This document shows, in pieces, positions 23,908 through 27,296 of a stretch of DNA of 39,598 nucleotides. Position numbers and translations under genes: made by a program. Under the pieces are notes generated by a model that worked only from the letters and a program-made list of their open reading frames with translations, searched no databases and was not told the origin of the DNA. The stretch comes from Methylococcaceae bacterium (GTDB lineage: Bacteria; Pseudomonadota; Gammaproteobacteria; Methylococcales; Methylomonadaceae), in assembly GCA_005772825.1 (NCBI GenBank), contig SXIP01000085.1:1-39598 (forward strand). Reading direction: 5' to 3'. How positions within the stretch are numbered: the first letter of the stretch is position 1; each line of letters starts with the position of its first letter.

Positions 23908-24159
23908 TTATGTCTACCAGTCATTAATCTACCGGTAATTAAATGGTTACAGTTGCAATAATACCATTTCTTCAGATTGATCCACCAAGTAAAGCGGTAT
24001 AAAGGGTTTAATCACGAAACAGAGCCAGATAAACCATAAACCGCTTCATTTAGAATTAAAACCGCGACGTTATTCGATTGACACTTGACCGAAACAATTG
24101 AAACAAATCTCTGTTTTTCGGAAATACTTCAGAAACACTAATACCTCACAATTTATCCC

Positions 24160-24421: not shown

Positions 24422-25618
24422 ATGAACACAAATCTTGATACCTCCAAAAAACAATCGCTCATGTCACGCCGCGTTAAACTGAGCAGACGAGCATCCCTGT
24501 TAGCAACGCTTGCCGCTCTTCCGGTGATGGCGGTCGCGCAACCGATATTACTGGACGATATTTATTTTAGCGGCGGCGCGCCTTTCAATAATAACTCACT
24601 GGCTGTTCAGGGTGGCGGCGCTCCGAAGACAACTTATCTCAAATTCAACAAGGCGATTAATGTACCGGCGGGGACCACGTCAGCCAAAATAGCCAAAGCC
24701 ACGCTCAAACTTTATGTGCAATCGGTCACTCACGCCGGCACTTTCCGCGTGTTTCCGGTCGATCCGACCTCCCCGACAGCAGTAACCGAGCCCGGTCCTT
24801 TTGCCGCACCAGTGCTGGGCCCTACCCCGGTCGGCCCTGCAGTAACGGTGAATAAAAAAGACGAATGGGTCAGTGTCGATATTACCCCGTTAGTGAAAAG
24901 CTGGTTCCCGCCCGCTGCTATAGGCAACAAGGGTATCGCTTTAGTGGGTAGCGCCCTGGCTAACTTCGCCTTTGATAGCAAGGAGTTTAACGGCACCAGT
25001 CACGAAGCCGTGCTGGAAATAGAATACGTAGGTGAAGGTCCGACAGGCCCGACCGGACCGACCGGGCCGCAAGGCGCCGCCGGCCCACAAGGCCCCGCGG
25101 GTCCTGTTGGGCCGGTCGGGCCAACCGGCGATACAGGCCCCACCGGCGCAACCGGAGCTACCGGAGCTACCGGCGCAACTGGAGCAACAGGTCCTAGCGG
25201 CGTCATCAACGCCGGCTTTATCGAAACCGACGGATTTGTCCCTGCATCAGCCATCACGACAAATATTACAATGATTACGGCGCCGCTTGCGATGACCATC
25301 ACGGGGCCTAACCAGGTAATACACTTTACCGCTCATAGAGCCTTGGGATCTACAGCCGTAGGCGGAGCTACGGCAAGCATCATGCCCTGTTACCGTGTCA
25401 CCGGCTCAGGCGATGTAGGACTGGTTACAACGAACCTGTTCCTGACTAATATGCATGTCACACAAAATGATCGCTCGGAATTCACGGTCAGTCGAGTCAC
25501 CCCTGTCCTGGCCCCAGGTTCCTATGATGTCGGTATGTGCGCTTCTTCCAGTGTTCCCGCCAATTGGAATTTCAACGAGGATGGCTACACCTCCGCGCTG
25601 GTTATCCAAAAACCATAA
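24422..25618 (+). CDS. Secreted DNRLRE-domain protein with collagen-like stalk, paralogue 1
   Basis: A 398-residue exported protein. The signal peptide has a basic start including SRRASLL (Tat-like) and a likely cleavage after AVA. Residues about 40-202 resemble the DNRLRE/CBM96-type beta domain of surface proteins ([41 protein letters not shown]). Then come 18 uninterrupted Gly-X-Y triplets, including five GAT units in a row. The C-terminal tip of about 130 residues has two cysteines (MPCYRV and VGMCAS) that the paralogue shares and may form a disulfide. A surface or extracellular trimeric stalk is inferred from the collagen repeat; the ligand is unknown. AGGA precedes the ATG. Confidence 0.85.
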
Positions 25619-25630
25619 CGTTTAATAAAC

Positions 25631-25662
25631 ACGGCGCAATAGCGATAAACCTGTTGCGCCGT
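25631..25662 (+). terminator. Hairpin after collagen-like gene 1
   Basis: ACGGCGCAA and TTGCGCCGT form a perfect 9-base stem with a 14-base loop, 12 bases after the stop codon. There is no T-run, only TATGTT. A sequence-related hairpin follows gene 2, so the 3' end was duplicated with the gene. Confidence 0.7.
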
Positions 25663-25810
25663 ATGTTGGATACCGCAAAATACTTAGCGCCCCACTTCCT
25701 GACACCCTATTTATGTGGTAGCAGCGTTTTGCATACAGCCTGAAACAATAGCAACAAAGTTTCGTATTTCCGAAATAATCCAGAAACATAAACCCATCAA
25801 ACTGTACCCC

Positions 25811-25831
25811 GACTCGCCGCTCACGCGGGTC
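25811..25831 (+). promoter_or_regulatory. Duplicated dyad element, copy 2
   Basis: GACTCGC and GCGGGTC around the loop CGCTCAC. It is the counterpart of 24160-24180, with pairing kept despite changes at three paired positions. It lies 280 bases before the start codon of gene 2. Confidence 0.55.
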
Positions 25832-26111
25832 AAGTAGAAACCGATTCTGGAAATTAGTAATTAAAAACAAAATTTCATGGGTCGGCACTAAAAAACGACG
25901 GAAAAACAACAACTAACTTTCGAGGTAAGTTATTAAAGGTTATTTAAATCGAATCATGCTAGTATTAAAATCTCTCTGTACGATTTTCTCAGCAATCACC
26001 GACCACAACATGAGTGCATCGTCATAAGGAGGTTCAGCATAAAAATCTTTAAATATTATTTTATAAGACGTTGATTTTTCGTACTTTAACTTAAAAACAA
26101 GGAATATTATT

Positions 26112-27296
26112 ATGAAACACGATAGATCCAACTTACGCTCACTAATGGCACCGCACCGTGTGATGCTTGGCAAAAGAGCTTCTCTATTGGCCGCGCTTAC
26201 GGTTCTTCCAGCCATGGCGGTCGCTCAACCGATATTACTGGACGATATTTATTTCAGCGGTGGCGCGCCTTTCAATAATAACTCGCTGGCCGTACAGGGC
26301 GGCGCTGCAAAAAAGACGACTTATCTGAAGTTTAACAAAGCGGTTAATATACCGGCAGGCACCACATCAGCCAACATCGCCAAAGCCACGCTCAAACTTT
26401 ATGTACAGAATGTCACTAAAGCCGGTACTTTCCGCGTGTTTCCGGTGGATCCAACCTCCCCTACCGCGGTAACCGAACCGGGTCCTGCTGTAGAGCCTGT
26501 ATTAGGGCCAACGCCGGTCGGTGCTGCGGTGACAGTAAACAAACAAAACGAATGGGTTAGCGTCGATATTACTCCGCTAGTGAAAAGCTGGTTTCCACCG
26601 GCGGCGGTAGGTAACAAGGGTATTGCTTTAGTGGGTAGTTCCTTAGCCAACTTCGCCTTCGATAGCAAGGAATTTGCCGGCACCAGTCACGAAGCCGTGT
26701 TGGAAATAGAACTCGTAGGAGCTGGACCAACAGGTCCAACTGGGCCTGTCGGACCGGTCGGACCAACAGGCCCTACAGGTCCTACCGGTCCGACAGGCCC
26801 AATTGGTCCGATCGGTCCGATTGGGCCAATCGGTTTGACTGGCGATACCGGACCGACAGGCCCAACAGGACCTACCGGACCTAGCGGTGTTGTTGCAGCC
26901 GCTGACAATGCTGCGGGCGCCCCAAATCCTTTAACAGGCACCAGTTTTGCCACCTCAAACCTGCTAGCTCCGGTAACCGTGACGGTCGACGGGACCCAGG
27001 TGATACACATTACTTCAACGGCTTCATTAGGTACTACGCTTGGCGCTAGCGGTTTGGGTCTTCGCCCTTGTTATCGCGTCAGCCCTGCCGGTACGCTTAA
27101 CTTCGCCAACAGCGGACCGGACGGAATATCAGTATTGGCAGGCCAACGGGTATCAATGTCTGTTACCGGTATTACACCGGTCTTGGCGGCGGGTGCTTAT
27201 GACGTTGGTATGTGCGCATACGCTGCTACTCCCGGCAACTGGAACAACAATGAGTTTGCTGAAACGTCGGCGCTGGTTATCAAACCGGGTCTTTAA
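26112..27296 (+). CDS. Secreted DNRLRE-domain protein with collagen-like stalk, paralogue 2
   Basis: A 394-residue paralogue of the preceding gene. The signal peptide ([19 protein letters not shown]) and the N-terminal beta domain are nearly identical to paralogue 1. The stalk again has 18 Gly-X-Y triplets, but of a different composition (runs of GPT and four GPI units). The C-terminal tip is clearly diverged apart from the two cysteine segments (RPCYRV, VGMCAY) and the end (TSALVI). Conserved base, equal-length stalk and variable tip suggest the two proteins sit in the same surface structure and bind different partners (inference). AAGGA precedes the ATG at a fair distance. Confidence 0.85.

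Follow-up and report, generated by a model that had tools for sequence, protein, structure and literature searches.

In the 39,598-nucleotide stretch of Methylococcaceae DNA analysed here (the window), two adjacent genes probably encode secreted, homotrimeric lollipop adhesins, each with a CBM96-type base, a collagen stalk and a tip that would bind a target outside the cell, from a family that would have grown by duplication and recombination. In this family the length of the stalk is free to vary and proteins exchange their tips, so that it resembles a changeable set of adhesins and not a fibre of fixed length.

Architecture of the gene pair and its host

Both open reading frames lie on the + strand, at 24422-25618 (398 aa) and 26112-27296 (394 aa), and both proteins are laid out as signal peptide, CBM96/DNRLRE base, Gly-X-Y stalk and a tip of about 135 aa, as follows.

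24422..24541, + strand: signal peptide of protein 1 (aa 1-40), by sequence reading (basic n-region, hydrophobic core, small residues preceding Q)
24542..25033, + strand: base of protein 1, CBM96/DNRLRE (aa 41-204); PF24517 E=3e-7 and NF033679 E=7e-10, both above cut-off
25037..25207, + strand: collagen stalk of protein 1, 18 G-X-Y triplets and closing GVI; Pfam Collagen E=5e-8
25208..25618, + strand: protein 1 tip of 136 aa, with stop codon; shares homology with the protein 2 tip and with the end of a Chitinophagaceae protein
26112..26228, + strand: signal peptide of protein 2 (aa 1-39), by sequence reading
26229..26720, + strand: base of protein 2, CBM96/DNRLRE (aa 40-203); PF24517 E=8e-9 and NF033679 E=2e-12
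26724..26894, + strand: collagen stalk of protein 2, 18 G-X-Y triplets and closing GVV; Pfam Collagen E=1e-7
26895..27296, + strand: protein 2 tip of 133 aa, with stop codon; 38% identity with that of protein 1

An earlier note on this DNA had described a tandem of secreted proteins with this architecture and with nearly identical DNRLRE domains, and the open reading frames together with the Pfam and NCBIfam matches confirm it; the signal peptides were assigned by reading the sequence for a hydrophobic core, without a dedicated predictor. The signal peptide of protein 1 may be a Tat signal, since it includes SRRASLL. Identity between the two proteins is 89-90% in the base, 68% in the stalk compared residue for residue and 38% in the tip (44% across its C-terminal 99 codons), and the signal peptides have diverged as well (61%). 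Pfam Collagen and CBM96 both exceed the gathering score in both proteins, and the uninterrupted Gly-X-Y run matching PF01391, by which membership of the collagen-like family was tested, is present in the pair.

The two bases resemble CBM96/DNRLRE proteins above the cut-offs of both databases, scoring 30.7 and 35.9 bits against PF24517 (cut-off 26) and 39.2 and 47.3 bits against NF033679 (cut-off 34). The base profile also matches TGF-beta family propeptides, a likeness that was reported for CBM96 by Dali as well (PMC9971899), and it gave no match to the CBM96 crystal structure 7VBO. The founding member of CBM96, TM6-N4, binds alginate through residues that have been published, and the members named in the same paper occur within lyases, disaggregatases and S-layer proteins (PMC9971899), whereas the CBM96 domain of the pair is the base of a collagen stalk. 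By analogy, it may anchor the protein on acidic polysaccharide.

The host is a methanotroph, as its genome carries pmoA above the cut-off. Two divergent pmoA-type genes were seen (G000:C209:14307-15023 and G000:C224:13626-14309), scoring 358.7 and 313.5 bits (cut-off 318). The gene adjoining the pair belongs to the beta-RFAP synthase family of the tetrahydromethanopterin pathway. The assembly is 77% complete in 292 contigs, and is the sole genome of its genus in the comparison.

Stalk length across the family

The earlier note had counted exactly 18 triplets in each gene, in GAT runs against GPI runs, and had suggested selection on stalk length. The count and the composition hold, as 18 triplets precede the common closing GVI or GVV in each protein, making 19 strict G-x-y units each by regular expression, with a GAT run in protein 1 and a GPI run in protein 2. 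The equality is weak evidence, since 19 is the modal value, found in 6 of 35 members overall and in 4 of the 9 complete members encoded here; for two members drawn at random from the set of 35, the probability of an equal triplet number is 0.044. Comparison of nucleotide identity across shifts gave no positional homology of the two stalks at equal register, with 0.62 at register 0, 0.54-0.66 at other shifts and the best value at shift +3 (0.66).

Homologues with widely varying triplet numbers, which the earlier note itself regarded as speaking against its proposal, were looked for and found, and selection on stalk length is not upheld. The eight other paralogues in this genome have 19, 26, 11, 19, 33, at least 21 (at a contig end), 17 and 20 strict triplets, and the range among family relatives is 6 to 64. 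Large differences are seen even between close relatives, namely 6 against 19 triplets in L045 and L071_1470 (bases 92% identical), 10 against 17 in L053 and L058 (90%) and 48, 44 and 64 in L042, L043 and L044 (90-96%), and the base nearest to the pair in the tree, L030 of the relative genome G049, is followed by 53 triplets. The one nuance in favour of the earlier view is a common length class of 15-20 triplets, chiefly of Lcl_C-tipped members. A minimum stalk length for a stable helix has been proposed for Lcl, and such a minimum would account for this class without selection on the exact number.

Tip exchange and tip divergence

With the eight further CBM96-collagen paralogues, the family has at least ten members in this genome. 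Their tips are Lcl_C in three (two above the cut-off, one at 23.9 bits against 34.9) and BclA_C in one (above the cut-off), while another has a weak Pectinesterase match below the cut-off and the rest are unnamed. Among 200 further genomes from the same taxonomic family, 20 carry such proteins by a search with the base and 23 by a search with a paralogue, and the tips of these relatives add an H-type lectin and a phage collar domain. By BLAST clustering, 18 tip clusters were distinguished among 37 proteins, three of the clusters being single truncated or very short tips. On the maximum-likelihood tree of the bases the tip labels require 19 changes, and Lcl_C alone requires at least three by well-supported branches.

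A clear case of exchange is found in the relative genome G023, where L053 and L058 are neighbouring genes. The L053 base is 90-94% identical to those of L058 and L071_2 (pS 0.13-0.17), but the tips are only 45-47% identical (pS 0.60-0.63); for L053 against its neighbour L058, pS is 0.17 in the base and 0.60 in the tip. Inversely, the 242-aa tip of L053 has 65% identity with that of L011_4039 in the genome studied here, with bases just 36% identical. L053 is thus a tip swap between base lineages, and the junction, judged from domain boundaries, would lie in or beside the stalk. The tip shared by L053 and L011:4040-5776 on their distant base lineages, 240 aa in length, includes a phage-fibre-like linker.

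For the pair itself, dN is 0.066 and dS 0.83 in the base, against a dN of 0.56-0.64 in the tip, about 9 times that of the base, where dS is saturated. Positive selection on the tip was considered and dropped given this saturation and an omega below 1, as is also the case in the base. Synonymous sites differ more in the tip (pS 0.70) than in the base (pS 0.50; 95% interval of the difference 0.07-0.33), so base and tip differ in age, through conversion that homogenised the base or through replacement of a tip. Gene conversion of the base fits the contrast within the pair equally well as tip replacement. The changing tip of the earlier note is borne out in that tips diverge faster than the base, but point evolution is not the whole story, as some of the change among the family's tips comes from recombination by module exchange.

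Neither Pfam nor, at significant scores, PDB contains a relative of the pair's tips. A search with the tip found no other copy in 200 genomes of the taxonomic family, a profile search none in 200 genomes from the order or some 400 from the phylum, and there was no match in 50,697 phage records; neither tip nor base matched viral contigs, and a plasmid-borne tip was rejected as plasmids gave no match. The only other relative found, in a limited pattern scan, is the C-terminal end of a longer secreted protein in a Chitinophagaceae MAG (39% identity over about 120 aa), and on this single match a transfer of the tip between phyla is plausible. Identity with BclA_C was rejected, as hhalign gave no profile link between the pair tip and the BclA_C-type paralogue tip (probability 0.2%), and when the L030 tip was tried as a distant relative a 15-residue motif alone was aligned (probability 9%). 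AlphaFold monomer models of the tip and of the full-length protein were too poor to rely on (pLDDT 42-43). As regards a trimeric jelly-roll of the BclA (C1q/TNF-like) type, the tip was modelled as all-beta with about 10 strands (pLDDT 42), and Foldseek on this poor model returned noise only, with no match at E < 0.03.

A common upstream element

A composite element precedes the first gene and a degenerate copy of it precedes the second, as found by DNA alignment and blastn of both upstream regions.

24091..24137, + strand: composite element GAAACA-N3-GAAACAAAT-N12-GAAATA-N5-GAAACA, 331 bp upstream of the first gene
25742..25788, + strand: degenerate copy of the element, 370 bp upstream of the second gene

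The element is 47 bp long with GAAAC-type units at 0, 9, 30 and 41. Its first 18 bases had 12 matches in the genome at two mismatches or fewer, against 0 for the reversed control, and the degenerate copy before the second gene is a 13th beyond these. In eleven of these 12 cases a gene in the same orientation follows at a distance of 117-449 bp, and its protein has a visible signal sequence; no clear gene goes with the twelfth (L119). At one mismatch or fewer ten matches were found here, and one or two in 9 of 200 relatives. The contigs that carry the other collagen paralogues contain none of the 12. The element looks like the mark of a lineage-specific regulon of secreted proteins, a prediction from the sequence.

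Some copies of the element, which was recorded in the window and at L108-L119, are followed by a palindrome-like AACTCGC..TTAAC.GCGAGTT. Among the genes behind the element, L132:9776-11944 encodes a secreted methanotroph protein matching the middle domain of hydrazine synthase alpha (PF18582, E=1e-9), and L135:747-2894 encodes NHL repeats with a glycoside hydrolase 26 domain. A riboswitch or other RNA in the common upstream region was considered and found no Rfam match.

Relation to known collagen-like proteins

Lcl, a collagen stalk with an Lcl_C tip, is a proven trimeric lollipop adhesin exported by the T2SS (PMC11162425), which binds its ligand C-terminally and mediates aggregation (PMC11162425; PMC6460258). 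Proteins combining collagen with DUF1566 have been named in Methylomonas and Methylobacter (PMC11162425), a paper that mentions neither CBM96 nor DNRLRE, and our literature search found none on CBM96-collagen proteins of methanotrophs. The remark of the earlier note that it knew of no described system of this layout in methanotrophs has to be qualified by these Lcl-type proteins. The pair shares with the Lcl of Legionella a predicted secretion, the collagen stalk, the C-terminal globular tip and polymorphic stalk length; three paralogues in this genome have a tip of Lcl_C/DUF1566 type, and a T2SS is present. In place of the 30-residue amphipathic helix of Lcl, however, the pair has a CBM96/DNRLRE domain of about 160 aa, and its tips, with no Pfam match, are not Lcl_C. 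Collagen-like adhesins were already known, and what is new here is the CBM96-type base replacing the amphipathic helix.

BclA is a Bacillus exosporium protein located on spores. It too has a collagen stalk with a C-terminal tip (PF18573), of the type seen in one paralogue here, but the pair tip has no sequence link to that paralogue's tip. The streptococcal Scl1 and Scl2, which are LPXTG-anchored with the head N-terminal, likewise carry a variable head on a collagen stalk; the pair has weak NCBIfam matches to them over the collagen part only, and does not come near the equivalog cut-offs (41 of 325 bits).

By analogy to Lcl, the pair should be exported as secreted trimers. The T2SS operon on contig C84 ends in gspD, directly followed on the same strand by a CBM96-collagen paralogue (L067:6813-7715, G000:C84), which favours the T2SS as a possible export route. 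A conserved linkage was discarded, as gspD was not beside the family genes of relatives in the stretches examined.

Proposed function and alternatives

In the adhesin reading the CBM96-type base probably binds acidic polysaccharide or the cell's own envelope and would so retain the protein at the surface, a short collagen triple helix on it would display a trimeric beta-rich tip, and the tip would bind something extracellular such as partner cells, surfaces or polymer. Tandem duplication would provide copies, recombination in or beside the repetitive collagen-coding segment would attach new tips to the common base, and stalk length would drift via repeat slippage or recombination above some minimum.

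The view of the earlier note, a fibre of selected fixed length in which 18 triplets are kept while the tip adapts, has in its favour that the counts are equal although the triplets differ, that 19 strict units occur more often than any other count in the genome and that 15-20 is the main class of Lcl_C-tipped members. With 11-33 triplets among this genome's paralogues and 6-64 across the family, 6 against 19 and 10 against 17 in near-identical neighbours, 44, 48 and 64 on three bases 90-96% alike, and the missing register homology within the pair, a fixed stalk length was rejected; this view is highly improbable, and for the family as a whole largely refuted. Even further from likely is an origin as phage tail fibre remnants, since the PHROGs matches to tail fibres, which have their centre in the collagen part, and the phage collar tip of one relative are opposed by the signal peptides and the CBM96 base, by the absence of the tip from phage records and of tip and base from viral contigs, and by annotated neighbour genes that are housekeeping.

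The pair might instead be matrix cross-linkers, with base and tip both binding polysaccharide in the extracellular matrix, and not tethered adhesins with a foreign target. Trimeric binding at both ends would cross-link, a CBM96 base and the H-type lectin or Lcl_C tips of some relatives agree with such a role, and Lcl, which assembles into large oligomers, drives both aggregation and biofilm (PMC6460258); the pair's tip, however, has no relative of known ligand, and we consider cross-linking rather unlikely. Divergence of the pair tips after tandem duplication with no exchange, the base being kept alike by purifying selection and gene conversion, comes close to an even chance. Homology between the two tips has persisted, dN in the tip exceeds that in the base about 9 times while omega stays below 1 in each, and conversion confined to the base would yield the same pattern, the signal peptide on its other side having diverged too. 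Selection alone is insufficient, as base and tip differ in synonymous divergence, and clear tip exchange is seen elsewhere in the family in L053.

Extending the adhesin reading beyond the pair, we tentatively propose, at clearly less than even confidence, that the adhesin repertoire of some gammaproteobacterial methanotrophs is cassette-like, in that one CBM96 base is carried on collagen stalks and tips are recombined at the repetitive stalk, sometimes from other phyla, and that in the present species the newest pair is co-activated with about ten other secreted proteins via the common upstream element. Methanotrophs live in consortia, and how partners or surfaces are recognised is poorly known; a fixed base with a collagen spacer and exchangeable tips offers candidate genes for this recognition. 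The family also serves as a natural experiment on how domains are shuffled along a collagen link, and protein engineers may find in it trimeric scaffolds that differ in length.
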